Below, one piece after another: positions 1,214 to 22,249 of a stretch of DNA of 37,851 nucleotides. This stretch comes from Thermoanaerobaculia bacterium (GTDB lineage Bacteria > Acidobacteriota > Thermoanaerobaculia > JALWYX01), in assembly GCA_027078415.1 (NCBI GenBank), contig JALWYX010000067.1:1-37851 (forward strand), in the 5' to 3' direction. The position numbers were made by a program, and so were the translations under genes. Under the pieces are notes generated by a model that had not been told where the DNA came from, made no database searches, and saw only the letters and a list, made by a program, of their open reading frames with translations. Positions within the stretch are counted from its first letter, which is position 1; each line of letters opens with the position of its first letter.

Positions 1214-1669
1214 TTATCTTACAAATCCTTTTTCTACCACTACGAATATCCCTTCCATTTTGGCTGTTATCTTTCCGTCTTCTCGTTGTATTTCGCCTTC
1301 TACTTTTATTTTTCTTCCTTTTCTCTCTGTAGCTCTATTTATAATGATTATTTTTTCGTTGGACGGTGTGGGTTTTAATAACTTTACTTTTATCTCTGCC
1401 GTTACAGTATTTGGAGGTTTTGATAAATTATCTTCGTTCATAACAAACCAGGCAGCACACCAGTTACCGTTACAATCTAGAAGGGTACATACTATTCCGC
1501 CATTTAATACTCCTTGCCACGCCTCGTGTTCCTTTCTTGCGTACCATTCAGCTTTGATAGATCTTTTATCTATAGGAAAGCTCTTTATCTGTAATCCTTT
1601 GCTATTTGCAGGACCGCATCCGAAACAGCGATTTTCCGGGTAAAATTTGTCTTGAATGCTAACTTCCAT
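1214..1669 (-). CDS. PaaI-type hotdog thioesterase family protein
   Basis: This 151-residue protein matches the hotdog-fold acyl-CoA thioesterase family in length and layout. An N-terminal NRCFGCGPANSKGLQIK block is typical of the subgroup that starts with F-x-CG-x2-N-x2-GL. The active-site segment GVLNGGIVCTLLDCNGNW forms the central helix and catalytic turn. In many PaaI proteins this segment reads HGG...LDE; here it is NGG...LDC. From memory this resembles a recognised subfamily with LNGG and LLDC, so I do not treat it as a dead enzyme. Substrate is unknown. It overlaps the end of the ureohydrolase gene by 11 bases and is probably cotranscribed with it. A long open frame on the opposite strand over the same region is a shadow. 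Confidence 0.8.
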   Translation of the reverse strand: MEVSIQDKFYPENRCFGCGPANSKGLQIKSFPIDKRSIKAEWYARKEHEAWQGVLNGGIVCTLLDCNGNWCAAWFVMNEDNLSKPPNTVTAEIKVKLLKPTPSNEKIIIINRATERKGRKIKVEGEIQREDGKITAKMEGIFVVVEKGFVR

Positions 1670-2531
1670 CTCTATTCTCCTTCTTTAACCATATGTTAAC
1701 GCTTTTATATATAAGCTTTGTAGCTGTGTAAGTACCCCATTTGAGTGTTTCCCGTGGAGAAAGCTCCACAAAATCTAAAGCTATAACTTCTTTTCTCCTT
1801 ATTATTTTTTCTATTATAGATATTGCTTGTTTCCATCCAATCCCTCCTGGTTCAGGAGTTCCTACGCAAGGAATTACAGAAGGATCAAGGAAATCAAAAT
1901 CTATACTAAGGTAGATTTTGTTAGGCATGTGATAAAGGATACTCTCTACCTCTTTTTCCCAAAAATCTAGTTTTAGTTTATCAGCTGTTGTAAATGGTAT
2001 GGAGTGTTCTTTGAGAAAGTTAAGTTCTTCGAGAGAAAATGCTCTTATGCCTATAGGAGCTATAGGTATTGATTGTTCGAATATTCTTCTTGCTGTACAA
2101 GCGTGCGAAAAATGATCCTTTTGGTATATTTTTCTGGTATCACAGTGAGCATCTAGATATATAAAGCCGAACCTTTCCCCTTTATCCTTTAAAGCTTGTG
2201 CTACACCTATAGATAGTGAATGTTCACCTCCTATTACAACGGGTAAAGTTTCGCTTCTACTTATAATATTAAATACAGTTGTAGCTATAGATTTAAGACC
2301 TTCAGAAGCGTCGGTGCTGGGAAAAAGGAACTCTGAAGTTGCAACTGGAACCGATGATAGGTCTATATTGGTTTGGTAATCCCAATCTTCCAATTGATTA
2401 GATAGTTGTATTATTTCGTAAGGGGCATTAACTGTGCCTTTTATAAAACTTGTAGACCTTTCCCAACATATAGGAATAAAGGTTATTTTAGGATTGGTAG
2501 AGTTTGGTAAACCTAAAAAGGTGGTAAGCAT
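1659..2531 (-). CDS. speB: agmatinase/arginase-family ureohydrolase
   Basis: This is a binuclear-manganese ureohydrolase of 290 residues, a usual family length. The metal-binding motifs are complete: GGEH (about 101-104), DAHCD (127-131) and SIDFDFLDPS (D211, D213), followed by GTPEPGG, which is closer to agmatinases than to arginases. The expected reaction is hydrolysis of agmatine to putrescine and urea, or of a related guanidino compound; substrate cannot be fixed from motifs. I start at the ATG at 2531 because the residues before it need a TTG at 2537. Neither start has a Shine-Dalgarno, but a TATAAT lies 13 bases before the ATG and 7 before the TTG. The stop overlaps the thioesterase start, and it diverges from the glycosyltransferase at 2728. 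Confidence 0.85.
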   Translation of the reverse strand: MLTTFLGLPNSTNPKITFIPICWERSTSFIKGTVNAPYEIIQLSNQLEDWDYQTNIDLSSVPVATSEFLFPSTDASEGLKSIATTVFNIISRSETLPVVIGGEHSLSIGVAQALKDKGERFGFIYLDAHCDTRKIYQKDHFSHACTARRIFEQSIPIAPIGIRAFSLEELNFLKEHSIPFTTADKLKLDFWEKEVESILYHMPNKIYLSIDFDFLDPSVIPCVGTPEPGGIGWKQAISIIEKIIRRKEVIALDFVELSPRETLKWGTYTATKLIYKSVNIWLKKENRDGS

Positions 2532-2544
2532 GATCAAGAGTTAA

Positions 2545-4261: not shown

Positions 4262-4807
4262 TTATACTGTTTGGTCGTTTTCATAGATATTCCAACTTAT
4301 TAATGCCGATGCGGTTAAAGCATGAATATAGTGTATAGAAGTTGTTTTTGTTCCGACCAACAACACTCCCGTTGCTATCTGAAGAATAAGAAGTGCTTTT
4401 GTTGTAATAGATATTCTCTGTCTAATAGCTGCTAGGAGTATAACAAATCCTAGCAAGGGATGAACTATGTTGTCGTAGTTTTTACTTCCCATAACAGATC
4501 CTATAATAGCGGTTATACCTATTGCTAAGGGTAAAATTAGGTTGTAGAGATTTAGCTTTGCCGATAAAAGAGATAGTATAATAACGGCTATTTTGTTTAT
4601 ATATTCCTCTAGCTGTATACGAAAGTTGATTAAAGAGAAGATGAAATATGCTAGGAATAGGATTCGTGTACTTGTTGTTTTTACAAAGGATATTCCGAGT
4701 AGGGTTAAAGAGTAGATAAAAAATTTTTTTAAAGACTCTGGTAAAGAGATAAATGATACACACAATAAGAGGAAAAGGAGTGAATTTTTAACTTTTTTCT
4801 CTTTCAT
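4262..4807 (-). CDS. Small polytopic membrane protein, possibly half-size CtaA/COX15-like
   Basis: This 181-residue protein is almost all hydrophobic helices, about six. The C-terminal half resembles a heme A synthase half: GSVMGSKNYDNIVHPLLGF, then a helix with LQIATGVLLVG, then SIHYIHALTASALISW, so histidines sit where CtaA/COX15 proteins place heme ligands. CtaA is usually about 300 residues with two four-helix halves; half-size forms are known in some archaea. Similarity was judged by eye and could also reflect another b-type membrane cytochrome. The start is fixed by translational coupling: its ATG overlaps the TGA of the upstream lipoprotein gene as ATGA (4804-4807). An ATG at 4849 in frame would overlap that gene more and has no ribosome site. 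No oxidase genes are near. Confidence 0.5.
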   Translation of the reverse strand: MKEKKVKNSLLFLLLCVSFISLPESLKKFFIYSLTLLGISFVKTTSTRILFLAYFIFSLINFRIQLEEYINKIAVIILSLLSAKLNLYNLILPLAIGITAIIGSVMGSKNYDNIVHPLLGFVILLAAIRQRISITTKALLILQIATGVLLVGTKTTSIHYIHALTASALISWNIYENDQTV

Positions 4808-6261
4808 TGAGCTGAGATAAATAGTGGGAGGATAAAATTTGGTTTCCATTGAATATCTCTACGTTTTATATATATGGAATCGGGATTTATAATAGGTATG
4901 AATATAAATTTATCTTTCAATACTTTTAGAGCTAAAGACAATTTCTGTTTTCTTAGTGCCATATCTAAAGTTCTACTTGCATCTTCTATTATTTTATCCA
5001 GTTCTTCATCTTCGAGATTTACAAAGTTGGCTGCACCCTTTGAGTGTACGAAAGTTTCAAGAAATCCTATTGAGTCACCTACTAAAGTTATAACTCCTCC
5101 GTAATAAAACTCTATCTCTTTTTTTTGGAGTTTTGGATAGAGCTCTGAAAAATTTAGTCTTTTGATATTCACTGTAATACCTATCTCTTTTAGGTCTGAA
5201 GCTATATATTCAGGGGTTTTGTCTGTAGTGCTTGTGTACAACGTTATAGGTTCTGATGGGTAATTTGCTTTTGATAATAACTCTTTTGCTTTTTGTAAAT
5301 TTCTTTTTGGGAGATTTATCTCGTCGGTATAACCAAAGATATATTTAGGTATCATAGCGTAAGCTGCTCTAGCGTACCCTTTAAATAACTCTTTCACCAT
5401 CCTTTCTCTATCAATTGCTAACGCTATTGCTTTTCTTACCTGAGGATCTTTGAAATAGATAGAGCTAGGTTTAAGGTGGAGGTAACGAATTATTAATCCT
5501 TGAAGAGGTACTATTTCTACATTTCTGTGCTGTTTAACACTTAATGAGGCCTCATAAGGTGTTATATCTTCTGCAATGTCAGCTTTGCCTGTAGTTACCA
5601 TGGAGATTCGTTTTTTCTCGTTGCTTTCTATAATAAATTCTAAAACGTCTGGGTACTGTTCATTAGCTAGAAAGTGGTAACTGTTTTTCACAAGTATGAT
5701 GTTGTTTTCTTTACCAAACCATTTTTGCACTCTGTAAAGTCCGCTACTTATCTTACCATCGTATGGAGATTCAAGGTATTCGTGGGGAATAATGTATATA
5801 TAAGCCAATTTGTAAAGTAGTAGTGGGTCTGGCGTATAAGTTTTAATTTCCACTATCCAGTTAGATATAGCTTTTATCTCTTTGACTGTTAAAAGGTAAC
5901 TTTTTATAGCGCTTTTTTCTTGTAGTGATCTTCTAATAGTTGCGACAACGTCCTGTGCTCTTATGGGAGAATTATTGCTAAAATGCAGATGCCTCTTTAT
6001 ATATATTTTCCAGGTTAAATCATCGGTATTTTCCCATTTTTCTGCTATTCGTGGGTGTATACCGAAGTCATTATCAAGTACAAATAGAGGATCGTTTATG
6101 TTGGCAAGTAACGCCAAAGTTATTATCTCGTTTCTGGAGTGAGGATCTAAAGACAACGGAGCTCTTTTGATAGCTATTTTAAGTTCACTTCTGGTATAAT
6201 TTTGGCGTTCTTTAGAGCAGGAAGTGAGAAGTATAAGTATGACTAGCAGTTTTATATTCAT
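4804..6261 (-). CDS. Family 5 (Dpp/Opp-type) solute-binding lipoprotein
   Basis: This 485-residue protein begins with a lipoprotein signal, ILLTSC with C15 as the acylated cysteine. The rest follows the SBP_bac_5 fold: ALSLDPHSRNE-like opening (KRAPLSLDPHSR), FSNNSPIRAQDVVATI (the F-x-DG-x2-AxDV region), FKDPQVRKAIALAIDR (the RxAxxxAIDR signature) and AYAMIPK. These proteins bind peptides, nickel or other solutes in the periplasm for an ABC importer. No permease or ATPase genes lie beside it, so it is an orphan that either works with a remote transporter or has another role. The ATG at 6261 has no Shine-Dalgarno; TATAAT lies 17 bases upstream. The downstream membrane protein gene overlaps its stop codon. 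Confidence 0.85.
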   Translation of the reverse strand: MNIKLLVILILLTSCSKERQNYTRSELKIAIKRAPLSLDPHSRNEIITLALLANINDPLFVLDNDFGIHPRIAEKWENTDDLTWKIYIKRHLHFSNNSPIRAQDVVATIRRSLQEKSAIKSYLLTVKEIKAISNWIVEIKTYTPDPLLLYKLAYIYIIPHEYLESPYDGKISSGLYRVQKWFGKENNIILVKNSYHFLANEQYPDVLEFIIESNEKKRISMVTTGKADIAEDITPYEASLSVKQHRNVEIVPLQGLIIRYLHLKPSSIYFKDPQVRKAIALAIDRERMVKELFKGYARAAYAMIPKYIFGYTDEINLPKRNLQKAKELLSKANYPSEPITLYTSTTDKTPEYIASDLKEIGITVNIKRLNFSELYPKLQKKEIEFYYGGVITLVGDSIGFLETFVHSKGAANFVNLEDEELDKIIEDASRTLDMALRKQKLSLALKVLKDKFIFIPIINPDSIYIKRRDIQWKPNFILPLFISAQ

Positions 6262-6306
6262 ATCGGTTTTAATTATTAATTATAGTGGTAATTTTAAGAG
6301 GGAGCG
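6262..6306. promoter_or_regulatory. Short divergent promoter region between the binding protein and carbamate kinase
   Basis: Only 45 bases separate the two starts. For the minus strand, TATAAT (6284-6279) precedes the binding-protein ATG by 17 bases. For the plus strand, TATAGT (6281-6286) with a weak TTCATA 18 bases before it could serve carbamate kinase. The two -10 candidates overlap, so the promoters may exclude each other. The -35 matches are poor. Confidence 0.3.
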
Positions 6307-7215
6307 ATGGAAAGGGCAGTTTTTGCTATAGGTGGTAACGCGATAGTTGATCCTAGAGATATGTCCGGTACAGATGTTATAAAAAAAGTGGTAAATGTCA
6401 TTCATATATTGGTGGATCGTGGCTATGAGATAGCTATAACTCACGGTAATGGTCCTCAGGTTGGGTTTGCTCTTCTGCGCAACGAATTGGCTCAACAGGA
6501 ACTCCCTTTGCAATCTTTGGACCTTATAGTGGCGACTACTCAGGGTGAAATAGGATACTTTATAGAAAAGGAATTAAGGGGAACCGTTTCAGCGGATGTT
6601 GTAACTGTTATTACGATGGTTGAAGTGGATGTGGATGATAAGTCTTTCGTGAATCCTACTAAATTTGTTGGTAGAACGTATCCTTTTGAGGAGAAAACGA
6701 GATTAGAGAAGGAAAAGGGATGGATTTTGAAAGAATACAGGAGAGGTGAATATAGAAGAGTTGTCCCGTCACCAAAACCCAAAACGATAGTGCAGTCTGA
6801 AGTTATAAAAGAGATATTGTCCAACAAGTTTCTGGTAATATGCTGCGGAGGTGGGGGTATTCCGGTAGCTAGGAAAGGGGAAAAATTGATCGGTGTTGAA
6901 GGAGTAGTGGACAAAGATCTCTCTTCCTCTTTGCTTGCAAAGGAGATAGAGGCTGAACTTTTAGTTATAGTTACCAATGTTCCGGCAGTTTTTTTAGGTT
7001 ACGGGACTCCTAACGAGGTAGCTATAGATAAAATATCTGCTAGTGAGCTTAAAGTATACTTGGATAAAGGTTATTTCCCCCCTGGTAGTATGGGACCTAA
7101 AATAGAAGCTGCAATTTTTTTTGTAGAGAACGGAGGGAAGAGAGCTATAATAACTGATCATAATAATTTGCAAGCAGCTTTAGAAGGTAGATCTGGTACG
7201 ATAATAGTTAAGTAA
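6307..7215 (+). CDS. arcC: Carbamate kinase
   Basis: This 302-residue protein is a full-length carbamate kinase (family about 310). Visible signatures are FAIGGNAI at the N terminus, ITHGNGPQVG, VPSPKPK, CCGGGGIPV, a late GSMGPKIEAAI and the C-terminal ITDHNNLQAALEGRSGT. It catalyses carbamoyl phosphate + ADP to ATP + CO2 + NH3, normally the ATP-yielding last step of the arginine deiminase, agmatine deiminase or purine/allantoin fermentation routes. The ATG is supported by GAGGGAG just upstream. No arginine deiminase or carbamoyltransferase gene is in the window; a ureohydrolase of guanidino compounds lies 4 kb away but does not make carbamoyl phosphate. The pathway is therefore open. Confidence 0.95.
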   Translation: MERAVFAIGGNAIVDPRDMSGTDVIKKVVNVIHILVDRGYEIAITHGNGPQVGFALLRNELAQQELPLQSLDLIVATTQGEIGYFIEKELRGTVSADVVTVITMVEVDVDDKSFVNPTKFVGRTYPFEEKTRLEKEKGWILKEYRRGEYRRVVPSPKPKTIVQSEVIKEILSNKFLVICCGGGGIPVARKGEKLIGVEGVVDKDLSSSLLAKEIEAELLVIVTNVPAVFLGYGTPNEVAIDKISASELKVYLDKGYFPPGSMGPKIEAAIFFVENGGKRAIITDHNNLQAALEGRSGTIIVK

Positions 7216-7295: not shown

Positions 7296-10175
7296 ATGGA
7301 TGCAGATTATTTTATTGAGAAATTGACTTACGATTTGGATGTAGAGAAAGCACTTTATAACGTTTCTTCTCTGTCTGAAAAGGAGGCTGAGTTTGAGTTT
7401 ATAGAATTGGATGAAATAGAGATAGAGTCTTTGAAAAGATTAGGTATAGAACGTCTCTATAAACATCAGGTTGAAAGCTTAAACGCTATCCGCAAAGGTA
7501 AAAATGTTTTACTCTCTACTCCTACTGCCTCTGGAAAATCTGTTGTGTTTTACTTAGCTATTCTGGATAAGTTAAGAAAAAATAGCGACGCTAAAACGCT
7601 TATTGTGTATCCTCTTAAAGCTTTAGCTAGGGATCAGATTGCTCGTATGAAAGATTTTTTTTACAGCGTTGGTGTAAAATGTGCCGTTTACGACGGTGAT
7701 ACCCCTTTAAGTGAACGTGAATGTATAAGGAAGGAGCAACCCCAAGTTCTGTTGACTAATCCAGATATGTTACATTTTGGAATACTTAGAAACTGGAAAA
7801 ATTGGGAGAGATTTCTATGTAGTTTAACTTTGCTTGTTTTAGATGAATTACACATATACAGAGGTATTTTTGGCAGCAATTTCAATCATATATTGGCTCG
7901 TATGAGACGATTTTCTCTCGCGAATCTCCAGATTGTTGCTGCCTCAGCTACTATAGGAAATCCTAAAGAGTTTGCTTCTCAGCTTACAGATTGTGATATA
8001 GAGGTTATAGATCGCTCAGGAGCACCATCTAAAAAACGGTATTTCCTCTTCTTTAACTCTTTGCTTTGTTCAAGTTCCTATTCGTTGGCGTTGAAATTAT
8101 TTGTGAGATCTATAGAAGCAGGTAAAAGAACGATTCTTTTTACAAAGTCTAGGGTAGCTACAGAAAGTATATACTCTAAACTCAAGCTATACAACAGCTC
8201 ACTGGCTAAAAAGGTAACCTCTTATAGAGCGGGTTATCTACCGTCTGAAAGGAGGTTTTTAGAGAGAAAGTTGTTTAATGGGGAACTGTTGGGGGTTATT
8301 TCCACTTCTGCGCTTGAGATGGGAGTGGATATAGGTGCCCTTGATGCTGTAATTTTGCTGGGTTTCCCTGGCAGTATAATTTCTTTCTGGCAGCGTATAG
8401 GTAGAGTTGGACGAAGAGATAGGGAAAGTTATATTGCTCTGGTAGCTATGCCCGATGCGTTGGACCAGTTTTATGTGAGGAATACTCATTTGCTTTTAAA
8501 CAAAAGGTGTGAAGAAGTTGCTATAAATCCTTATAACAGGTACGTGGCTTCTTGGCATCTTAGATGTGCTGCTGTGGAAAAACCTATATTGAAAGAGGAA
8601 CCAATAGCAAAAAGGTTCAATTTGTTACTTAAAGAACTTGCCGATGAAGGTATTTTGGAGTTTGACGGCTCTTTCTATTATTCCAGAGGAAAAGTTGTAC
8701 ACGATTTGCAAGGGATAAGAGGGGAAGGAGGGAAAGAATTTGTTATCAGAACTGAGGATAACAGAAAAATAGGAACAATTTCAGGGGTAAGGGCTTACCT
8801 CGAGTGTCATAAGGGAGCTATTTATTTGCATCGAGGGGATGCGTGGGAGGTGACCGAGTTTAATGAGATTACAAAAGAAATTATTGTAAAACCAGCATAT
8901 GCACACCTTTATACCAAAGCTCTTACCAGGAAGAATACCACTATTATTGCGGAGTATAACTCTTTTAGAGCTGGACGTTTTACAGTATCTTTTGGAGAGA
9001 TAGAAGTTGAAGAAGAGGTAGTAGCTTATGAAGTTAGGAACTCTAAGACCGGTCAACTTTTAGGGATAAGAGAATGCAAAATGCCTAAAGTTGTTTTTAA
9101 TTCTCATTCGATATGGTTTAAGTGGGATGATAAAATCACTACCATCTTGTCTAGAAATTTTGATTATGCAGGTTCTATTCACGCTTTTGAGCATGTTGCA
9201 ATAGCCCTGATACCTAGTGTAGCACTGTGCGATAGAAACGATCTAGGGGGAATATCTTTTCCTTATCACGAGCAAATAGGTTCCGGGGTTGTGTTTATTT
9301 ACGAAAGTTATAGGGGTGGTATGGGGGTTGTAGAAAGTGCTTTTGGAAATATAAATCTTTTATTAAGAAGGATTGTAAATACTTTAGAAAATTGCTCGTG
9401 TGATGATGGGTGTCCTGCATGTATACATTCTCCGAAATGTGGGAACGGGAATAGACCGCTAGACAAAAAAGGTTCTCTATTTCTAGCTAAGATTATCTTG
9501 GAAGAGCTTTCTTCGCCTGACACCCTTTTTAGAGCATCTAAAGAGCAAAATAACGATTCATATTGTACCTGTAAGGATAAAGCGAATTCAAATAGTCATT
9601 TGGTGTGGATCAAAAAATATTCCTCAGATATACCTAAATATGGAGTAATAGTTTTTGATATAGAGACCCTCAGGTCAGCTGCAGAGGTAGGAGGGTGGAA
9701 CAATGTAAAGGATATGGGAGTTGCATTGTCTGTAGTGTACCACTTAGAAAGCAAGCAATTTGCAACTTTTAAAAGGGATGAAACCTCCAAACTGCTAGAA
9801 CTGCTTTTATCCGCTGATACAGTTATAGGTTTTAACGTTAAGAAGTTCGATTACAAGGTTCTAGAAGGAGAATTGGGAATATCTTTGAGTTCCAGGTTGA
9901 CTTCTAAAACTATAGATATATTTGAGAAGGTTCATACAAGTATAGGAAAGAAAGTTTCTCTTGCCAATCTGGCACGTAATACTTTGGGAAAAGGTAAGAT
10001 TGCAAACGGTATGCAATCGTTGGTGTGGGTAAAGAAAAATAGATTAGATCTTGTAGAAGAGTATTGTAAGGTAGATGTTGAGATTACCAAAGAACTCTAT
10101 ATATTCGGAAAAAAATTTAAATATTTATTGTGTAATTTCAACAAAAAACTGATTAAAGTAGAAGTTGATTGGTGA
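7296..10175 (+). CDS. MrfA-like DExH helicase with DUF1998 zinc region fused to MrfB-like exonuclease
   Basis: The 959-residue chain has three parts. Residues about 50-420 are a superfamily 2 helicase: TPTASGKS (75-82, Walker A), DELH (183-186), SATIGNP, and the motif V-VI region ALEMGVDIG to QRIGRVGRR. Residues about 430-730 are the DUF1998 region, closing with cysteines C700, C702, C706, C709 and C715 (CSCDDGCPACIHSPKC), the cluster typical of YprA/MrfA. Residues about 780-955 are a DEDD-type 3'-5' exonuclease like YprB/MrfB: FDIET (D788, E790), GFNVKKFDY and YCKVDVEIT. In Bacillus subtilis MrfA and MrfB are separate proteins of a mitomycin-damage repair pathway. The fusion suggests one repair machine. 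I start at ATG 7296; TTG 7293 is possible. The next gene begins just after the stop. Confidence 0.88.
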   Translation: MDADYFIEKLTYDLDVEKALYNVSSLSEKEAEFEFIELDEIEIESLKRLGIERLYKHQVESLNAIRKGKNVLLSTPTASGKSVVFYLAILDKLRKNSDAKTLIVYPLKALARDQIARMKDFFYSVGVKCAVYDGDTPLSERECIRKEQPQVLLTNPDMLHFGILRNWKNWERFLCSLTLLVLDELHIYRGIFGSNFNHILARMRRFSLANLQIVAASATIGNPKEFASQLTDCDIEVIDRSGAPSKKRYFLFFNSLLCSSSYSLALKLFVRSIEAGKRTILFTKSRVATESIYSKLKLYNSSLAKKVTSYRAGYLPSERRFLERKLFNGELLGVISTSALEMGVDIGALDAVILLGFPGSIISFWQRIGRVGRRDRESYIALVAMPDALDQFYVRNTHLLLNKRCEEVAINPYNRYVASWHLRCAAVEKPILKEEPIAKRFNLLLKELADEGILEFDGSFYYSRGKVVHDLQGIRGEGGKEFVIRTEDNRKIGTISGVRAYLECHKGAIYLHRGDAWEVTEFNEITKEIIVKPAYAHLYTKALTRKNTTIIAEYNSFRAGRFTVSFGEIEVEEEVVAYEVRNSKTGQLLGIRECKMPKVVFNSHSIWFKWDDKITTILSRNFDYAGSIHAFEHVAIALIPSVALCDRNDLGGISFPYHEQIGSGVVFIYESYRGGMGVVESAFGNINLLLRRIVNTLENCSCDDGCPACIHSPKCGNGNRPLDKKGSLFLAKIILEELSSPDTLFRASKEQNNDSYCTCKDKANSNSHLVWIKKYSSDIPKYGVIVFDIETLRSAAEVGGWNNVKDMGVALSVVYHLESKQFATFKRDETSKLLELLLSADTVIGFNVKKFDYKVLEGELGISLSSRLTSKTIDIFEKVHTSIGKKVSLANLARNTLGKGKIANGMQSLVWVKKNRLDLVEEYCKVDVEITKELYIFGKKFKYLLCNFNKKLIKVEVDW

Positions 10176-10182
10176 TGTATGG

Positions 10183-11733
10183 ATGGGTATAAAAAAGACT
10201 GTTGTTGTAAGTAATCTATTTATTGTCTTGTTTTTAACATTTTATGTTTCCCAAATATTCTCTAGAACTAGCGGTAAAAATTTTTATCTTCTAGATGATG
10301 CGTATATTCATCTAGCTGTTTCTGAGGAGATCGCTCGAGGTGGTTACGGGATCAACAAAGACGAGTTTTCTGCTCCTTCGTCTAGTATAATATGGCCTTT
10401 TATCTTTGCTCCTTTTGCTGGCTTTAAATGGCATATTATAACTCCTTTGCTTGTGAATACTATCCTTATTTTCCTTATTTTTTATCTGGGTACACAAATT
10501 TTATCTCAGGAAGGCTATCCGTTGGAGTTAAGTGTTGTACTGGTTTGGTTTATATTTGTTGTTGTTGGTAACTCTTTCTACTTACTGTTTTCGGGGATGG
10601 AACATCTACTACAGGTTTTAACTATTCTTATAGCTTATAAAGTGGTAAGAGATTCGATTTTCGACGGCAGTTGTTCCCGATCTTTAGCACTATTATCTCT
10701 TATACTAGCTCCTTTAGTACGTTACGAAGGGTTAGCAGTAACTGTTAGTTCCCTACCATTTTTGGGAAATATTAAGTTAGCAGCTTCAATAGTTGCTGTT
10801 GTTATTGTGTTTTTAGGTAGTTTCTCTCTATTTCTTTATATAAACGGTGGTATTCTTTTGCCCTCTTCTGTTTTAGCAAAGAGTGTTGTAGGGATACCTG
10901 GCAAAGAATCTTTATTAGAGGCGATAGTGTTCAACTTCTATCGTAATATGACGATTAAGAATTACGGAATGACTATGTTAATTATTCTAATCACTATAGT
11001 GTCTATGGTGCTTTTTTTACCTGAGGGTGAAAGGGAACGTAAACGTTTAGGAGTTTGGGGTATTACTAATTTGCTCCTTTTTATGTTTTTTGGGTCGATG
11101 ACGGGCATAGGCAGATATGGAGTACCTTTTTTGGTATTAGGTACCTTGGTTGTTTTGAATCTTATATCTTACAGAGTTACTGAGCTTTGGTATACAAAGA
11201 GAGCCCTTTTTGTATTGTGGCTTGTTTCTATAATGCCGCTTTTTTATATGAATATCTATTATCAATCAAAGATAGTGGATGCAGTTGAAGATATATATTT
11301 GCAGCACTATTTTATGCATTATCTAAGTAAATTTCTAAGAACCGGTGCTGTTGCACACGATATAGGGTATCTCTCTTATAGGAACGATTATTATATACTT
11401 GATATAGTAGGTTTAGCGAATATCAAGGCTTTGAAAGAGAATCGTAAACCTCAGAAACTGCCTTATTCATGGGTAATTTCTGAAGCTTTGAAAAAAGGTG
11501 CTCATATAGCTTTTACTTACCCTACATGGGTTCAGCTTCCTAGACCTTGGCTACCTGTTGTAGTAATAGAAGAGAAAAGAAAACCTATTACTGCGTCTTA
11601 TGACAAGATATTTTTGTATACTCACAACGAGAAATTAGCTAAATCGTTGCTGGAAGTTCTAAATGAAGTCTCTTTACCGTCAAACAAAGTTGCTTTTAGA
11701 CCTATTGTAGTTGTAAAGGGTGCCGGAAAGTAG
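10183..11733 (+). CDS. GT-C-type integral membrane glycosyltransferase-like protein
   Basis: The protein of 516 residues has an N-terminal membrane anchor followed by LLDDAYIHLAVSEEIARG with adjacent aspartates D38-D39, and then APSSSIIWP. This first-loop DD plus SS-x-(I/L)W layout is common in GT-C transferases of the AftB/GT39/GT87 kind. About ten hydrophobic helices and a C-terminal soluble domain follow. Donor and acceptor are unknown. I use the ATG at 10183, supported by GGTGA seven bases before, not the TTG at 10165 that overlaps the helicase gene. It overlaps the next gene by 14 bases, so the two are surely cotranscribed and may work on the same glycan. Downstream of a DNA-repair gene, the transcriptional link is probably incidental. 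Confidence 0.7.
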   Translation: MGIKKTVVVSNLFIVLFLTFYVSQIFSRTSGKNFYLLDDAYIHLAVSEEIARGGYGINKDEFSAPSSSIIWPFIFAPFAGFKWHIITPLLVNTILIFLIFYLGTQILSQEGYPLELSVVLVWFIFVVVGNSFYLLFSGMEHLLQVLTILIAYKVVRDSIFDGSCSRSLALLSLILAPLVRYEGLAVTVSSLPFLGNIKLAASIVAVVIVFLGSFSLFLYINGGILLPSSVLAKSVVGIPGKESLLEAIVFNFYRNMTIKNYGMTMLIILITIVSMVLFLPEGERERKRLGVWGITNLLLFMFFGSMTGIGRYGVPFLVLGTLVVLNLISYRVTELWYTKRALFVLWLVSIMPLFYMNIYYQSKIVDAVEDIYLQHYFMHYLSKFLRTGAVAHDIGYLSYRNDYYILDIVGLANIKALKENRKPQKLPYSWVISEALKKGAHIAFTYPTWVQLPRPWLPVVVIEEKRKPITASYDKIFLYTHNEKLAKSLLEVLNEVSLPSNKVAFRPIVVVKGAGK

Positions 11734-13900
11734 TTATATATATATTGCCTATTTTTCTGTGCTTATTCTAGTTACCGTTTGGGTATCTCGTTTTGAAAAA
11801 AAGAGCGATATCTTTATATCTTTATCGTTATCTTTTTGCATTATGCTTTTCTTCTTCTACAAGACTTTTATTTTTTTAGAACCTTTAGTTCCGTTTGACT
11901 CTTTGCGAGGTAGCAAGCCCTTCGATTCATTACCTCCTTTAGACCCTCATACAAATTTTCAACTTTCCGATGTAGTAACTATGCTTTTGCCACTTTATAG
12001 TGAGGTTAAAAGTGCGATTCTGAACGGTGATTTTCCTTTGTTTAGTGATATATTGGGAACAGGTCATTGTCTTGCATGTGATCCCCAAGCGCAGGTGTTT
12101 TCCCCTCTTACATGGTTTGCTCTCCCGCTGGATAGTGTAGCAACCCAGAATTTTTTTGTAATCACTAAGATAACTTTAGCTGTTTTTTTCACGTTTCTTT
12201 TTCTTCGTTCTTTAGGTTTGTCTGTTGCTGCATCTATCTTCGGTGCTAAAGTGTGGGGGGCTTCAGGTTTTACGCAGCAGTGGATAGCTTTTCCTTTAGG
12301 CAATTTTTCCTATTCTTTGCCTTTTTCTCTCTACGGTATCTCTAAAATGGGATCATCTTCATCTTTGCCTGTATTTGCTCTATATACACTCCTTACTTCT
12401 GGTCATCCAGAGGCTGTTGTATGGTCGCTAGTTGTTATAGGAACGTTCTACCTATTATGGTATCAAAATAAAGATAAAAAGGATCTGTTGTTAGTATTTG
12501 CCGCTTTTTTTCTCGCTGCACCCGCTTTACTGATGCCGTTTACATCTTTTAGAAATTCTTGGAGAGCAGAAACTCTAAAGGCCACCGTTGAACACCTTGA
12601 AAATAATCCCCCGCCGCGTTTACAACGTTTAGCTCAGATACTCTTCCCCAACGCATGGGGAAATACCAGATTTTATATGTCTTATTACGGTGAAAATAAT
12701 TCGTTGGAAGACTCCAGCGGATTTGTAGGTACTCCTTCATTTATGCTTTCGATTTGCGCTTTATATGTTTTAGGTAAAACGGCTCTTCCCTGGTTCGTTC
12801 CTATAGCAATGGGATTTAGTGTCCTTTCTTTTCCTATAGAGTATATATCGTTACCTCCTGCACTAGTTACTTTTATAACTAAAAGGAGAAGTTACCTTAT
12901 TATTTCATTTTCCTTGACTGTGTTAGCTTCATTAGTTCTTGATAAAATCAGAAATTTTAAATCTATTCTCTACCCTTTTTCTTTGACTCTTCTATTACTT
13001 TTTGGTATATATTCTTACTCGCCGTCTACAGAGACAATTCTTCCTTTTAAAAAAGGTTACTTTAAGCTGCAGTTGATGGTATTGGTTACGTTTTTTCTAG
13101 GATTTGCTTTTTATTTACTGTTTATCTATAAGTGGGTACGCAAGGGTATTTTTTTGTGTGCTATGTCAGTTATAGCTTTTTTTGAACTTTATAAACATCA
13201 TAAGGATAACTACCCTTCAGATTTTCCTTATTCTACCCTACCCTCTTCACCCGTTATAAATAAGTTGTCATCTGTTGCAAAAGGTTACCGCATTTCTGGT
13301 GTAGATACAGTGTTTATACCTTCTGTAGCAGCTTTGTATCGATTAAACGATATTAGATTTTACAACCCATTGGTTAACAAGTTTCACTTTGGCCTTTTTT
13401 ATCCTTTTATTTTAAGTGAGGAAGGCCCTCCTTTTTTAGACGGTGAAAGTATTTCTCTGCTGCCCTACTGGGGGGTAAAATTTTTAGTAACTCCTCCTCG
13501 GTACTCTGTTCCTGGTGATTGGAAACTGCAATACAAAGGTTACGACTGTTGGATATATTCCCATTCACGTCCTCGTCCTATTTTTGGTTTTCAGAATAGA
13601 GATGGGCTTATACAACTGCAGCCTTTTAAGGAGAGGAACGGATATTGGGAATTTATGCTGCCGAAAAAAGAGGGAGATTTCTTTGCAATTTTGGTTAATG
13701 ATGGAGGATGGAAAGCTTATGTAGATGGTAAAAGAGTAAAGGTTCAAGCCTCCAAAACACCTGAAGTTAAGATAAGGGTCAAGGAGGAAGATAAGAGGTT
13801 AGTAATTAAATATTCTCCTGATCTATTAATGGTTTCTGCTGTAGTTCATATGATAGGATGGATATTCTACTTTATACATATCTTTTTGAGAAGAAGGTGA
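11720..13900 (+). CDS. YfhO-like polytopic membrane protein
   Basis: At 726 residues with about 12-14 membrane helices and a C-terminal periplasmic domain, this fits the YfhO family (GT-C-like proteins; Bacillus YfhO is linked to lipoteichoic acid glycosylation). Supporting stretches are LDPHTNFQLSDVVTMLLPL, the loop ILGTGHCLACDPQAQVFSPL and, late, LLPYWGVKFLVTPP followed by a beta-rich tail with VNDGGWKAYVDGKRV, which is typical of the family's end (x-DPGWKAYVDG). Function is likely glycan transfer from a lipid-linked donor; the target is unknown. The start is a GTG at 11720 inside the previous gene, with AAAGG directly abutting, so the true start could lie slightly downstream. No further gene follows on this strand before 15656. 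Confidence 0.72.
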   Translation: MPESSYIYIAYFSVLILVTVWVSRFEKKSDIFISLSLSFCIMLFFFYKTFIFLEPLVPFDSLRGSKPFDSLPPLDPHTNFQLSDVVTMLLPLYSEVKSAILNGDFPLFSDILGTGHCLACDPQAQVFSPLTWFALPLDSVATQNFFVITKITLAVFFTFLFLRSLGLSVAASIFGAKVWGASGFTQQWIAFPLGNFSYSLPFSLYGISKMGSSSSLPVFALYTLLTSGHPEAVVWSLVVIGTFYLLWYQNKDKKDLLLVFAAFFLAAPALLMPFTSFRNSWRAETLKATVEHLENNPPPRLQRLAQILFPNAWGNTRFYMSYYGENNSLEDSSGFVGTPSFMLSICALYVLGKTALPWFVPIAMGFSVLSFPIEYISLPPALVTFITKRRSYLIISFSLTVLASLVLDKIRNFKSILYPFSLTLLLLFGIYSYSPSTETILPFKKGYFKLQLMVLVTFFLGFAFYLLFIYKWVRKGIFLCAMSVIAFFELYKHHKDNYPSDFPYSTLPSSPVINKLSSVAKGYRISGVDTVFIPSVAALYRLNDIRFYNPLVNKFHFGLFYPFILSEEGPPFLDGESISLLPYWGVKFLVTPPRYSVPGDWKLQYKGYDCWIYSHSRPRPIFGFQNRDGLIQLQPFKERNGYWEFMLPKKEGDFFAILVNDGGWKAYVDGKRVKVQASKTPEVKIRVKEEDKRLVIKYSPDLLMVSAVVHMIGWIFYFIHIFLRRR

Positions 13901-13973: not shown

Positions 13974-14429
13974 CTAAGGTAAGAATGAATTGTTAGATGT
14001 TGAAAGCAAGGATTTGAATTTAGATCCTATACTTTTAGCTATCTCTTCAGCTTCGCTTTTTTTATATCTAGTGCGTTTCCAAATCAATTTGTAAGAAAAC
14101 AAGCCGTCTCCTTTTTTGCGCGGTATTACGTGGAAATGAACGTGTGGTATAGATTGACTTACCTTTACATTTATTGCTATAAAAGATCCATCTTGATCTA
14201 GAGCCTGTTCAACTGCCAAGGCTAGTACTCGTAGATAGTTTATTATCTTGGATGAAATTTCATTGTCTAGCTCGGGAAATAGTTCCACATGTTTGTTGGG
14301 TATAAGGAGGCAATGTCCTTTACGTAAAGGGTATTTATCTAGAAAAATTGAGATAAGTTGATTCTTGTATACCCAATAAGCCTTTTCCTCGCCTTTTACT
14401 ATTTCACAAAATATACATTTTTTAGCCAT
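13974..14429 (-). CDS. HIT-family nucleotide hydrolase/transferase
   Basis: The 151-residue protein carries the HIT signature PHVHFHVIPR with H96, H98 and H100; the middle histidine is the nucleophile in the family. The N-terminal CIFCEI pair, a frequent zinc-binding feature of HINT-type proteins, and HCLLIPNKHVELF are also present. Family members cleave AMP or other nucleotides from small molecules or dinucleoside polyphosphates. Length is slightly above the usual 110-140 because of a basic C-terminal tail. GGAG a few bases upstream supports the ATG at 14429, and the gene overlaps the stop of the preceding cyclotransferase-like gene by 8 bases. It is last in a three-gene unit after rdgB. Confidence 0.88.
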   Translation of the reverse strand: MAKKCIFCEIVKGEEKAYWVYKNQLISIFLDKYPLRKGHCLLIPNKHVELFPELDNEISSKIINYLRVLALAVEQALDQDGSFIAINVKVSQSIPHVHFHVIPRKKGDGLFSYKLIWKRTRYKKSEAEEIAKSIGSKFKSLLSTSNNSFLP

Positions 14430-14937
14430 CTACGCTCCAGTTGGATAATGGGTATTGTTGCAATGGATATTTGGGCTTGTTGGCTACATAAGCCCATGCA
14501 GGTATAGAGTAGCCGTTAGAATAGCAATTGATAAGTACCCTCATATACTCAGAGTCTTCGCCGCTAAATCCTTCAAAATCATCTAGCTTTTTAAGTAGTT
14601 TTACTATATTCTGCGTTGATTCTTTAACAACTATCAGTTCACCCTCTATTGGTTTTTTTGTGCGGTAGTTTGGTTTGCTTTTTATAGGTGTGAATTTTTT
14701 AGCTAGATGTAGATCTTTTCTTATATCTTTTGATCCTTGTAGAACAAATGTTTCTACCTTTAGAAACGGTATGTTTCTTTTTATATCTACGAGTAGGATG
14801 CCAGGTATATATGCGATTTGAACTTCTTTGGTTAATCTTGAGAAAAAGAGGTTGTGATAACTGTATCTACGTTTTAGGAGTCCGTATACGAATAAATTTA
14901 CTTTTTCTGTGTTAGTTTTGCGATCAGATCTCTCCAT
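14422..14937 (-). CDS. Gamma-glutamylcyclotransferase-like (AIG2 family) protein
   Basis: The 171-residue protein begins after a short basic lead with LFVYGLLKRRYSYHNLFF, matching the VYGxLk nucleotide-like loop that starts the GGCT/AIG2 fold. Near the end, KLDDFEGFSG then YMRVLINCY matches the LDxFEG...Y-x-R region holding the family's acidic catalytic residue. The family releases 5-oxoproline from gamma-glutamyl peptides or acts on related amine adducts; the substrate is not known here. The middle part is poorly conserved. AGAGGA lies six bases before the ATG, so the unusual 40-base overlap with the end of rdgB is likely real. It also overlaps the HIT gene by 8 bases, which suggests coupled translation. 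Confidence 0.72.
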   Translation of the reverse strand: MERSDRKTNTEKVNLFVYGLLKRRYSYHNLFFSRLTKEVQIAYIPGILLVDIKRNIPFLKVETFVLQGSKDIRKDLHLAKKFTPIKSKPNYRTKKPIEGELIVVKESTQNIVKLLKKLDDFEGFSGEDSEYMRVLINCYSNGYSIPAWAYVANKPKYPLQQYPLSNWSVDG

Positions 14938-15455
14938 GCTTTTCCTCTGTGTGCTATTCTATTTTTCTCGTTTTGTGAAAGTTCAGCAACCGTTTTTCCT
15001 ATCTCTGGTATAAAAAATATCGGATCCCAGCCAAATCCACCTTTTCCACGTGGAGGAAGAACTAACAACCCTTCGTCTTTTCCGTATCCTATAATTGTTT
15101 GGTTACCGTCGTACCAAGCTACCACCGATATCGCTTTAACCTTGGGGTTACCTAGGGATATAGCTATTGATGCTAGCTTTTCATTGCCTACAGATTTTAG
15201 CATCCATTTAGCTAATGGGCCTGGAAACCCGTTCAAAGATTCCAGTTCTAAAGCGGTTTCTTCAATAACAACACTCTCCCCTACTTCCGTAAATGCACGC
15301 TTCGTTTTACTTTTGATAATAGTGTGTATATCTAGAGACTGCGGTTCTTCTAATTCAAGTTTTTTTATTTCCAATTCAAAACCTAAAGGTTTTAGTATGC
15401 TCTCTACTTCTTTTGCTTTGTTAATATTTGAAGTAACGAAAGTGAGTTTCCTCAT
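14898..15455 (-). CDS. rdgB: RdgB/HAM1/ITPA-type nucleoside triphosphate pyrophosphatase
   Basis: This 185-residue enzyme is expected to hydrolyse dITP, ITP and XTP to monophosphates, keeping deaminated purines out of DNA and RNA. The family landmarks are LTFVTSNINKAKEVESIL, LNGFPGP, GGFGWDPIFF and AHRGKAW. It looks more like the archaeal/eukaryotic branch (LNGFPGPLAKWMLKSVGNEKL) than like E. coli RdgB. The usual acidic pair before the substrate loop, (A/E)DDSGL or EDTCL, reads IEETAL here (E65, E66), so the catalytic aspartate position holds glutamate. That may be tolerated or may change activity. The ATG at 15455 has no Shine-Dalgarno; an extended -10 sits 14 bases before it. It heads the rdgB-GGCT-HIT unit. 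Confidence 0.88.
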   Translation of the reverse strand: MRKLTFVTSNINKAKEVESILKPLGFELEIKKLELEEPQSLDIHTIIKSKTKRAFTEVGESVVIEETALELESLNGFPGPLAKWMLKSVGNEKLASIAISLGNPKVKAISVVAWYDGNQTIIGYGKDEGLLVLPPRGKGGFGWDPIFFIPEIGKTVAELSQNEKNRIAHRGKAWRDLIAKLTQKK

Positions 15456-15478: not shown

Positions 15479-15655
15479 AACTTAAGAGAAATTTTATATC
15501 GATTTTCTAATTCAGAGTTACTTAGCTTTTGATTACACCTTTAAATTGAAGACGTTTGTGGTATTGGTCAATGTGTTTGGGCCCCAATCATCTTTTGTTA
15601 TTTTCTCTGCTTGGGGTTTCTATTTCTCAAGAGCACCGGTAAAATTTTATCTAAG

Positions 15656-17500
15656 ATGGGAAGGGTAAGGTGTTGTGCTTTTTTTCTCTTTGTTTTTCCT
15701 ATATTTTGTTCTTACGCAGATTCCTTGTGTATGCCTGATAAAGAGACAAGAGATTTTATAGAGAATTCTCTTGAAAAATTTAACAGTTGTAGGGATCAAG
15801 AGTGTTTTGTAAAAGTTTTGAATGAAGTTGAAAAGCAAGTTTTTTCCTATCCTATAAATTTACACCGGCATTTGTTGTACCAAGATCTTTTATGGCGTCT
15901 TGGGCTAATAGAAACTCTTTCTGGGTATACTCACTTAGCTGCTGAAGCGCCTGAGGACCCAAAAGCCCTTTTCCTTCTTGCCATCACACCTATAAAGGAG
16001 CCTTTTGAGCAAAGAGAGATAGCGAGCAAAATAAAGGAAATAGATCCTGATTTTCCTTATCTGGATTTGCTTTACGCTTATATATATCTAAAGGAAAAAG
16101 ATAATAGTATGGCAGCCAAGCACGCTACTTCTTTCTTCGATAAATGTTCTAACTTATTTCTTATTGTTCCTTTTCTAGAATTTATTCCGGAAGATATATT
16201 AAAGACCCTTGTCCCCAAGGTTCATAGTTTGTTGTTAGAAAACCCTATAGCGTATATAGATAAGTTTGTACCCCTATGGCGGGCGTTGGTCAAATTGTCA
16301 AATGGTAAAGATGTGGTAAAAAGTGACCTTGCTCTTTTGGAGAAGTTGAAGTTGCCTAACAACTTATTTTCTCTTACCGTTTTGATTGAAGGATATAGGA
16401 TTGTTGATGATTTAGATAAATTTGTAGAATACGGCAAGAAAGCTGTAAGTAGAGATATATGTAGTGTTACACCTCTAGCTTTAGATATAAACGAGGTAAC
16501 AGGAGCTCAAGATTCTTTTGAATTTCTTAAAGATCTGTTGTTTCGATGTCCTAACGACTTATTTGTAGCTTCCAAAATAGTTGAGGAATTGGAGAAAAGA
16601 GACCTCGCGGGAGACAATTCTATATCACAAATAGTAGAGAAATTGCTAGACGATTTTGAATTCTCAGATGAAGTTATGCTTCCATTGCTCAGGGTCGCAG
16701 ATCGGTGGAACAGTGAAAAATGGGCAAAGGAGCTAGTTAGGTGGTTTATAGAAGAGTACGATCTTTATGACAAGAAGCTATTCACTGCTTATTTAGTGGA
16801 AATAAACCGTCTTAAAAAGATCGGTGAGCTAGAAAAAGCTATTGCTATAGCGTTGAAAATGGTTAAAGAGTTCCGTTTCTTCTTACTGGAACTACCTAGA
16901 GAAGAAGCGTCTGAGTTAGCGTATCTACTATACGACCTTTACAGCCTTAAAGGAGACAGCGTCAGAGCAATATTGTGGTATAACCTTTATCTCTCCTACG
17001 GTAACGGATACAGAGTGCAAGAGTACGAAAAAGTTGAAGATATTTTAAAGCAAGTAGGAATTTCAAAAGATGAGTTTAGAGTTATGCGCAGCTTTTATGC
17101 AAGGTATCATTATGATTATAGCTACTCTAAGAACGTTAAAATCCCTACCAAGGTTCTCATTTTTGGGTTGGATGGTAAATTTTGGGTTTGGGAAGATATA
17201 GAACAGCTTGATAAAGCTGCTATTGTTATTGTTAATAATCAGTGTTACAACTGCGATCTTCATATAACAAATCTGCTTGGTTGTTTATCTGAAGGAGTTG
17301 ATGTTGTAGTTATTGTTGTTGGAAGAGATGCTAAAAATTTTTATTCCTTCAAAGATAGAGTTATTTTATTGACAGATCCCAACGGTAATTTTGCAGTTTT
17401 GAGTGACATCTACCCAACAACTGTTTTTCTCAAAGATAAGAAGATTAAAAAGGTTGTAAAAGGCAAAATCGAGTGTAAATCTGATATAGATGTTTTTTAA
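15656..17500 (+). CDS. Exported helical-repeat protein with C-terminal thioredoxin-like domain
   Basis: I start at the ATG at 15656, which gives a 614-residue protein with a signal peptide (MGRVRCC, a hydrophobic core, then CSYA before DSL); the longer TTG-initiated frame would bury that signal. Residues about 25-470 are helical and leucine-rich, resembling degenerate TPR-like repeats, though I could not define clear repeat units. Residues about 500-610 read like a thioredoxin fold: a strand KVLIFGLDGKF, a strand AAIVIVNNQC, the dithiol motif C530-Y-N-C533, and YPTTVFLKDKKI with the cis-proline position. The dithiol suggests a periplasmic redox, disulfide or sensing role. Hydrophilic N-terminal cysteines (LCMPD, SCRDQEC) could be its partners. 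No homologue is recognised by name; neighbours give no clear function. Confidence 0.6.
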   Translation: MGRVRCCAFFLFVFPIFCSYADSLCMPDKETRDFIENSLEKFNSCRDQECFVKVLNEVEKQVFSYPINLHRHLLYQDLLWRLGLIETLSGYTHLAAEAPEDPKALFLLAITPIKEPFEQREIASKIKEIDPDFPYLDLLYAYIYLKEKDNSMAAKHATSFFDKCSNLFLIVPFLEFIPEDILKTLVPKVHSLLLENPIAYIDKFVPLWRALVKLSNGKDVVKSDLALLEKLKLPNNLFSLTVLIEGYRIVDDLDKFVEYGKKAVSRDICSVTPLALDINEVTGAQDSFEFLKDLLFRCPNDLFVASKIVEELEKRDLAGDNSISQIVEKLLDDFEFSDEVMLPLLRVADRWNSEKWAKELVRWFIEEYDLYDKKLFTAYLVEINRLKKIGELEKAIAIALKMVKEFRFFLLELPREEASELAYLLYDLYSLKGDSVRAILWYNLYLSYGNGYRVQEYEKVEDILKQVGISKDEFRVMRSFYARYHYDYSYSKNVKIPTKVLIFGLDGKFWVWEDIEQLDKAAIVIVNNQCYNCDLHITNLLGCLSEGVDVVVIVVGRDAKNFYSFKDRVILLTDPNGNFAVLSDIYPTTVFLKDKKIKKVVKGKIECKSDIDVF

Positions 17501-17989: not shown

Positions 17990-19384
17990 ATGTGGTGGAC
18001 GGTAATTTTCTATTTTACTGTAGTTATTCTAGTAGGTTTTTTTGCTAGCAATTTCTCTTCTCGTGGGATAAGCGAGTTTTTTGTGGGTGGTAGAAAGATT
18101 AACAGGTTTGTTGTAGCGTTATCCGCTGTTGCTTCTGGTAGGTCAGCATGGCTTTTTATAGGGTTTACTGGTACTGCTTACGTTATGGGTGTATCTGCGG
18201 TTTGGGCTCTTGTGGGATATATAGTTGTTGAAATGCTACTTTTCTTTTTCTTTGCGCCCAGAATTAGAGACTTTGCAGAGAAAAGGGATGTTATAACTTT
18301 AATAGACTATTATTTGGAGCGTTTTGGTTCTGGTAGGCTGCTTCGTTTCCTGCTTGCCGGTGTGATAGTGATATTTATGGTTTCTTATTTATCTGCCCAA
18401 TTGGTAGCAGGCGGTAAAGCTGTTTCCGCCACTCTTGGAATAGGTTTAGACAACGCTATTTTCCTAACTGCTTTGGTGGTTGTTAGTTATACAGTATTAG
18501 GAGGTTTTCTCGCAGTTAGTGTTACCGATTCTATTCAAGCTATATTTATGTTATTAGGCGTTTTGACCGTAGTGTTTTTAGGTTGCAGCAAGATAGGGGG
18601 ATTGTTCTTATTGAAAGAACTTTTGGAAGCGTTAAATCCTAGCTTGGTAGATCCGTTAGCCCTTTCTCTAGGTTCATTTATAGGTTTTTTAGCTATAGGG
18701 CTTGGTTCTCCAGGTAATCCCCACATAATAGTTAGGTATATATCTATAGAAGATTCAAAATATTTTCCAATTGCTGCTGTTGTAGGTACCGTTTGGAATG
18801 TAGTTGTTGGTTGGAGTGCACTTCTTGTAGGTTTACTAGCTAGAGTTCTGTATCCAAGCAAAGAGGTTTTCTTGGGTGCCGATCCTGAACAAGCATTTTT
18901 GTATATGGCTAAAGATCTTTTACCTTCCCCTTTGTACGGCTTGGTTCTCGCATCCGTTTTTGCAGCTATTATGTCAACGGCAGACTCTCAGTTGCTCGTT
19001 GCTTCATCAACCCTTATTAGGGATATTTATCAGAAAATGCTAAAACCCGATGAAGATAGTAAACGATTGGTTGTTCTCAGTAGGGTTTCTGTAGTAGCTT
19101 TAACCGTTGTTGCAGTAGCGTTGTCTGCGGTTGCCTCTAATGTTGTTTTCACTCTCGTGCTGTACGCTTGGGCTGGTTTAGGAGCGGCTATAGGACCTAC
19201 AATTTTGTTGGGAGTTTATTGGGAAAAAACCAACTATTACGGTGTAGTTGCGGGTATAATAGTTGGTACAGTTACTGTAATAGTTTGGAAAACGTTTAAC
19301 TTACCTCTATATGAGCTTATTCCAGGGTTTATATTTTCTATTTTAGCTACTGTCGTGGTAACTTCTTTGGTAAAGAAATCTTAG
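17990..19384 (+). CDS. Sodium:solute symporter (SSS/PutP-like)
   Basis: This 464-residue protein has about 13 membrane helices and the SSS family features: an N-terminal FFVGGRKINRFVVALSAVASGRSAW (sodium-site and substrate region in helices 1-2), VSYTVLGGFLAVSVTDSIQA, the sequence PSPLYGLVLASVFAAIMSTADSQLL near the SSS signature, and a hydrophobic end. Closest in character to proline transporters (PutP), but the substrate is not fixed by motifs. It moves a solute inward with Na+ across the inner membrane. The ATG at 17990 has AGG five bases before it and a TAGAAT nine bases before it. It converges with the AGCS Na+:alanine symporter with only 17 bases between their ends, so two sodium symporters lie tail to tail. 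Confidence 0.9.
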   Translation: MWWTVIFYFTVVILVGFFASNFSSRGISEFFVGGRKINRFVVALSAVASGRSAWLFIGFTGTAYVMGVSAVWALVGYIVVEMLLFFFFAPRIRDFAEKRDVITLIDYYLERFGSGRLLRFLLAGVIVIFMVSYLSAQLVAGGKAVSATLGIGLDNAIFLTALVVVSYTVLGGFLAVSVTDSIQAIFMLLGVLTVVFLGCSKIGGLFLLKELLEALNPSLVDPLALSLGSFIGFLAIGLGSPGNPHIIVRYISIEDSKYFPIAAVVGTVWNVVVGWSALLVGLLARVLYPSKEVFLGADPEQAFLYMAKDLLPSPLYGLVLASVFAAIMSTADSQLLVASSTLIRDIYQKMLKPDEDSKRLVVLSRVSVVALTVVAVALSAVASNVVFTLVLYAWAGLGAAIGPTILLGVYWEKTNYYGVVAGIIVGTVTVIVWKTFNLPLYELIPGFIFSILATVVVTSLVKKS

Positions 19385-19401
19385 TGTTAGGTACAAAAGT
19401 G

Positions 19402-21030: not shown

Positions 21031-22249
21031 TTCTCCTCCTTAAATCGTTTTTAAGAATTCTCAACTTTTCTATTTTTAACTCTTCTTTACCAATTGCCCA
21101 CTGAGCTAAAATTTTACCGAATATAAAACCTAGGCTAAACCCATAATTGCTCATCCCTGCTGTGTACACTATATTTTCAGAAAGTTCGCTGATGTCTATA
21201 ACGGGCAATCTATTGGGTGTTAATCCTTCTATACCTGCCCACCTATAAAGTACTCTTGATTTGTTAAACTTTTTGAATATAGAGAAAAAGTTCTTTTCTA
21301 GGCTCACTTGTACTGTAGCGGTTGGTAGAGATTTTAGAGTGGGTATAACCGCGCTTTCGTATTGCCAACCTCCCCCTGTTACTAATATTTCTCCACTAGA
21401 GTATTGAGTGATGTTTAGTTGTGCATCGGAAATCAACCAACATCCAGGTAGTTTGTTGATGTTTTTCTCCGTAGAGAAAGCTTCTAGCCTTACGGGAGTT
21501 ATTACCTTGTTAAGCTCAGGTAGAATAGATCTTGCGTGTACATTTGCTGCTACTATAACCCTTTGAGCTATGTATCTTCTGTTCGAACCTACTACTAGTA
21601 AGCCGTTACTTTTAGGTTCTATAAATCGTACCTTCTCTTTTCTGATTACGTTTACTTGCGAGTGTTCTGCAAGAATAACAGCCAATTTATGAGGATTTAA
21701 AGAAAAATCTAAAGGAGTAAAAAACGCTCCTCCTAACAGATTTGATCCGGTAAGTTTTGCTACTTCTCTTTCAGATATCCATTTAGATCTACTTTCTGGG
21801 AAAAGATGTTCTATTACATTAAAGCTCTCTTCCCACTCTTTTATTTCTATACCGCCTTTTTTGGCACTTCTGAAGCTGCTAAAGTTAAAGATTAAATCTT
21901 TTGTTTGTGGTATATGGGATATTTCTTTTTTTAGTAATATTTGATTCTCTATCGATAGTTGCCATACCGTTTTTGCGGCATCTTCTCCTACAAATTTAAC
22001 GAGTTTTGTATATGGGAAAATTCCTCCTGTATAGACTGCTCCTATCGATTGTCCAGTTGCTCCTTTAGCTATAGAATCGGCTTCTATTAGAGTAATTTCA
22101 CTTTTTTTTGCACCTAGCTTGGTAAGCCACCAGGCTGTTGATGCCCCTACTATTCCTCCTCCTACTATTAGTATTTGTGTAGGAATAGCATGGCTTTTGT
22201 TAACAAGCCAGAAAGATAATGGTTGTTCAGGTAGCTCTAATTTAGTCAT
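21014..22249 (-). CDS. DadA-like FAD-dependent amine/amino-acid oxidoreductase
   Basis: This 411-residue flavoprotein has a dinucleotide-binding fold, LIVGGGIVGASTAWWLTKLG (G30-x-G32-x2-G35), preceded by an unusual lead of about 25 residues. The DAO-family landmarks follow: TLIEAD, GATGQSIGAVYTGG, and near the C terminus YRWAGIEGLTPNRLPVID and TAGMSNYGFSLG. Relatives include D-amino-acid dehydrogenase, glycine/sarcosine oxidase and dimethylglycine dehydrogenase. With an alanine/glycine-type importer directly downstream, oxidation of an imported small amino acid is the natural guess, but stereochemistry and electron acceptor are unknown. It overlaps the thiolase by 8 bases and the symporter by 17, so all three are one transcript. 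Confidence 0.85.
   Translation of the reverse strand: MTKLELPEQPLSFWLVNKSHAIPTQILIVGGGIVGASTAWWLTKLGAKKSEITLIEADSIAKGATGQSIGAVYTGGIFPYTKLVKFVGEDAAKTVWQLSIENQILLKKEISHIPQTKDLIFNFSSFRSAKKGGIEIKEWEESFNVIEHLFPESRSKWISEREVAKLTGSNLLGGAFFTPLDFSLNPHKLAVILAEHSQVNVIRKEKVRFIEPKSNGLLVVGSNRRYIAQRVIVAANVHARSILPELNKVITPVRLEAFSTEKNINKLPGCWLISDAQLNITQYSSGEILVTGGGWQYESAVIPTLKSLPTATVQVSLEKNFFSIFKKFNKSRVLYRWAGIEGLTPNRLPVIDISELSENIVYTAGMSNYGFSLGFIFGKILAQWAIGKEELKIEKLRILKNDLRRRSVRST

Follow-up and report, generated by a model that had tools for sequence, protein, structure and literature searches.

A single-chain MrfA-type helicase and DEDDy exonuclease in Acidobacteriota as a candidate counterpart of the MrfA–MrfB pair

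One gene of the Thermoanaerobaculia DNA analyzed here (the window, 37,851 nucleotides) joins a helicase and an exonuclease in a single protein. The nearest characterized counterpart is the MrfA and MrfB (YprA/YprB) system of Bacillus subtilis, which has the same helicase architecture, the same zinc cluster (MZB), and a paired DEDD 3'-5' exonuclease, but in which the two activities reside in two proteins and not in one chain. An earlier note, made from the sequence, described the gene as a fusion of an MrfA-like helicase with an MrfB-like exonuclease. This raises the question of whether the nuclease is in fact MrfB and, if not, what kind of enzyme has been attached to the helicase and for what role. 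The reading we favor, with a probability of roughly two in three, is that of a self-contained 3'-5' helicase–exonuclease, built like WRN, which replaces the MrfA and MrfB pair and probably serves in DNA repair.

One reading frame with two catalytic halves

Translation of the frame gave 959 residues followed by a stop codon, and every motif quoted in the earlier note was recovered (Table 1), including D788 and E790 within FDIET, GFNVKKFDY, YCKVDVEIT, and a cluster of five cysteines at residues 700–715. Pfam identified DEAD (1e-31), Helicase_C (9e-18), MZB (2.7e-17), and RNase_H_2 (2.9e-5) domains in the full-length protein, with the last improving to 1.2e-6 when the C-terminus was the sole query. 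Chance, sequencing artefact, frameshift, and mis-assembly could all be ruled out because many relatives share the same unbroken frame. Homologous single frames of approximately 870 to 1,490 amino acids occur across the phylum with identical active-site residues. The source genome is approximately 1.96 Mb in size and 97% complete, and the G+C content of the window is 36.5%.

Table 1. Coordinates of the fused gene, its domains, and other genes in the window
Feature	Position	Strand	Details
Whole fused gene, MrfA/YprA-type SF2 helicase, linker, and DEDDy 3'-5' exonuclease	7296..10175	+	959 aa
SF2 helicase core, TPTASGKS, DELH, and QRIGRVGRR	7461..8417	+	Pfam DEAD residues 56-225, Helicase_C 269-374; motif columns invariant
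Winged-helix region, weak WHD_HRQ1, residues 410-462	8523..8681	+	21.2 bits against a Pfam cut-off of 27
MZB (DUF1998) Zn-binding domain, residues 631-710	9186..9440	+	Pfam; Cys conservation
Predicted disordered linker, residues 743-781	9522..9638	+	pLDDT <50; length differs among relatives
DEDDy exonuclease domain, residues 782-959 (D788, E790, D852, Y923, D927)	9639..10172	+	model pLDDT 94.3
Amino-acid-use genes, clustered: arginase, peptide-binding protein, carbamate kinase, sodium:solute and sodium:alanine symporters, FAD oxidoreductase	1659..2537; 4804..7215; 17990..22249	- (1659..2537)	
Frame with no family match	10165..11733	+	522 aa; overlaps the end of the fused gene
Weak YfhO membrane-protein match	11720..13900	+	726 aa; overlaps the 10165..11733 frame
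HIT-domain, AIG2-like/gamma-glutamyl cyclotransferase, and Ham1-type NTPase genes	13974..15455	-	in a row, with slight overlaps
Frame without Pfam or PADLOC match	15611..17500	+	629 aa

The description of the N-terminal half as MrfA-like was upheld by the MZB domain and by both sequence and fold. The nearest solved protein by sequence was B. subtilis MrfA/YprA (6znp, E = 1.9e-111, residues 22–712), and the best match of the model among PDB folds was the same DNA-bound MrfA structure (7e-65, TMt 0.78). The DEAD and Helicase_C domains make up an SF2 core with intact helicase motifs, and C700, C702, C706, and C709 correspond to the four-cysteine DUF1998/MZB zinc site of MrfA. These four are invariant in a wider alignment that takes in unfused as well as fused helicases; together with Cys 715 they are invariant across 24 fused sequences. 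By analogy with characterized MrfA, the fused helicase would unwind DNA in the 3'-5' direction.

The window protein together with 29 relatives served as input for an AlphaFold2 model (mean pLDDT 86, pTM 0.74), which placed a disordered segment between the helicase and the C-terminal domain, and no helicase–nuclease interface could be read from it with confidence. The linker, taken from the PLDK motif to the DxET of the nuclease, ranged from 41 to 133 residues in the 16 sequences measured. The fusion had previously been taken to support direct physical cooperation between the two activities. Such cooperation is plausible, but a rigid coupling is unsupported, since the tether is predicted to be disordered and varies in length.

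A DEDDy nuclease family distinct from MrfB

The exonuclease half is a DEDDy, proofreading-like enzyme and not an orthologue of MrfB. D788, E790, D852, and Y923xxxD927 are invariant in the sequences of 35 relatives and follow a DnaQ-like order. The tyrosine of motif III stands where MrfB has a histidine: the published MrfB active site includes His258/Asp262, of the Hx3D type (PMC11194089), and the MrfB proteins of this phylum carry D, E, D, and Hx3D, with H251xxxD255. The TPR tail of MrfB is also absent, as nothing follows the exonuclease domain, which closes the chain at residue 959.

Could the nuclease nevertheless be MrfB itself, joined to its partner? Its pairing with MrfA is identical, both nucleases match Pfam RNase_H_2, and the two can be aligned by hhalign (94.8%), which indicates relatedness at the level of the superfamily. 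However, the solved MrfB structure (8UN9) was matched neither by the single sequence nor, at E<=1, by a profile of 35 sequences, whereas a profile of the phylum's own MrfB, used as a positive control, matched it at 1e-57. In a tree, the fused nucleases grouped with standalone nucleases of approximately 190 residues, and MrfB was set apart by a total branch of approximately 5.8 changes per site. With Yx3D in place of Hx3D and no TPR tail, a true MrfA–MrfB fusion is disfavored and very unlikely. The earlier label of "MrfB-like" therefore holds for the superfamily but not for orthology; the C-terminal 180 residues retain invariant DEDD residues and a DnaQ-like fold while failing to match solved MrfB.

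The structural neighbors of the DEDDy domain lie elsewhere. By fold, the C-terminal model came closest to T7 DNA polymerase (5e-6) and to polymerases of the B type (1e-5 to 1e-4), in which the aligned domain is presumably the proofreading exonuclease, and the closest phage family was phrog_403, annotated as "DNA polymerase exonuclease subunit" (8.7e-16). These matches favor exonucleases of DNA polymerases over a second possibility, namely an RNA-processing protein in which a nuclease like RNase D or NrnC is mounted on an SF2 motor. DEDDy chemistry is common to RNase D and NrnC, Pfam DNA_pol_A_exo1 was matched at 7e-5, and the 35-sequence profile gave weak matches that included NrnC (0.38–0.67). 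Membership in the NrnC/RNase D group was rejected, as the E-values of the profile search were insignificant. The solved MrfA structures from this helicase family have DNA bound to them (6znp). While RNA is a possible substrate, since DEDDy enzymes include RNases, we regard a role in RNA processing as unlikely.

The standalone members of the DEDDy family, approximately 190 amino acids in length, were found in Acidobacteriota genomes that lack the fused helicase (L104-L116, e.g., L114:3195-3743:+). The closer ones are 36–44% identical to the fused domain and, unlike it, have no helicase attached.

Distribution of the fusion and of MrfB

Helicase and nuclease share one uninterrupted frame in at least 39 of 297 sampled Acidobacteriota genomes, a lower bound given that several helicases of the fused clade were incomplete and were not classed. 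A search of genome contigs with the single protein found one relative only; a query made from an alignment would have had a longer reach. The fused helicases form one clade (support 99/90), and the unfused MrfA-type helicases make up the other main branch. The sister of the fused clade is an unfused helicase without a nuclease (G146:C76, L102:3018-5342:+), which may represent either an early branch predating the fusion or a loss; the same genome also encodes a genuine MrfB and a second YprA-type helicase that belongs to the other branch.

Genuine MrfB was present in 88 of the 297 genomes and adjoined the helicase in 47. Downstream of the unfused MrfA gene there was often a second gene, of approximately 415–620 residues (stop-to-stop), that matched RNase_H_2 at 1e-31 to 1e-36, with TPR matches in some cases. 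In two genomes (G287:C32, L117; G318:C6, L119), unfused MrfA-type matches were split over different frames, which suggests frameshifts or assembly errors. None of the 39 genomes with the fusion encoded MrfB, compared with 88 of the 258 others (Fisher p 3e-7, with no correction for kinship). Because a deep split divides the two helicase clades, the exclusion is confounded by kinship and is suggestive of replacement without being proof of it. The DEDDy family as such is compatible with MrfB, since five of the genomes with MrfB also hold a standalone copy.

The fusion as such is already known. A 2025 preprint describes a DNA-repair branch of the YprA family with members "fused to" MrfB/YprB homologs (PMC12458937), and those fusions very likely include the present architecture. 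The earlier note had allowed that the fusion might prove common and already described in many lineages, which is borne out in part by its frequency in this phylum and its mention in the preprint. The main text of the preprint reports neither a separation of the DEDDy nuclease from MrfB nor an exclusion between the fusion and MrfB. In the literature searched (open-licence papers only), we likewise found neither of these two points.

Genomic context and proposed function

Nuclease fusions at the C-terminus of YprA helicases are also typical of the antiviral systems ARMADA, TALON, and Druantia, according to the preprint (PMC12458937), and the helicase part of the fused protein shows similarity to the DruE, DrmA, and BrxH models. 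Consequently, a helicase–nuclease of the YprA defense branch (Druantia, ARMADA, DISARM-like) has to be considered. However, the protein matches MrfA best, lacks the large inserts of the defense branch, and has a nuclease of neither the Vsr nor the PLD type reported for that branch. Five window proteins, neighbors included, were scanned for defense systems, and no neighbor gave a match. Among the scanned neighbors there was no methylase, PLD or Vsr nuclease, or defense operon of the kind that marks YprA helicases of DISARM, Druantia, ARMADA, or TALON. The nuclease had no match in 72,556 plasmids. In relatives, the neighbors are metabolic, with a thiolase and a 3-hydroxyacyl-CoA dehydrogenase upstream and a shikimate kinase downstream. 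The metabolic neighbors and the lack of defense matches favor a housekeeping role over defense, and an antiviral function appears highly improbable. No conserved operon partner emerged: in the regions flanking the fusion in 22 relatives, no homologue of any window neighbor was present.

The earlier remark that no UvrABC genes are in view is correct for the window but does not extend to the genome, where UvrA, UvrB, and UvrC were each found elsewhere, above their curated cut-offs. Consequently, the fused gene is no stand-in for missing excision repair.

For the favored reading of a single-chain helicase–exonuclease, two further systems provide points of comparison. WRN, a RecQ helicase with a DEDD exonuclease, likewise combines a 3'-5' helicase and a 3'-5' exonuclease in one polypeptide, and coordinated action of the two has been reported (PMC1435914). 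It differs in its RecQ-type motor, its N-terminal exonuclease, and its eukaryotic origin, and the architecture is convergent. SaDinG, the exonuclease–DinG protein of Staphylococcus aureus, is likewise a bacterial helicase–exonuclease fusion and has been tied to crosslink repair (PMC12345164), but it has a DinG-type 5'-3' helicase and an N-terminal exonuclease.

That all helicase and nuclease residues are conserved speaks for two active enzymes, as far as can be judged from sequence. In the proposed mechanism, the MrfA/YprA motor would load onto single-stranded DNA and unwind it in the 3'-5' direction, carrying the proofreading-type 3'-5' exonuclease on a flexible linker. The exonuclease would then trim the exposed 3' end, so that one protein could both open a damaged stretch and remove it. 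The fusion would thereby substitute, in the Acidobacteriota lineages that carry it, for the two-gene MrfA and MrfB system, with its nuclease drawn from another DEDD subfamily. Unwinding followed by trimming is the best reading by likeness to MrfAB (PMC11194089), WRN (PMC1435914), and SaDinG (PMC12345164). Catalytic activity, DNA as the substrate, the stated polarity, and participation in the repair of lesions are probable attributes, and any specificity for mitomycin or other lesions would be carried over from B. subtilis by analogy.

Whether this arose by non-orthologous replacement of MrfB, with a DEDDy proofreading-type exonuclease of another subfamily recruited in Acidobacteriota to form a WRN-like chain in place of MrfA and MrfB, is in our view an evenly balanced question. 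If it did, physical coupling of an MrfA-type helicase to a 3'-5' exonuclease would have been selected more than once. The support for contact between MrfA and MrfB consists of two-hybrid results and a computed model only (PMC11194089). As a naturally occurring single chain with another nuclease, the fused protein would offer an easily purified means of testing whether repair needs a tethered 3'-5' exonuclease. It also corrects the assumption that a nuclease fused to a YprA helicase is MrfB.
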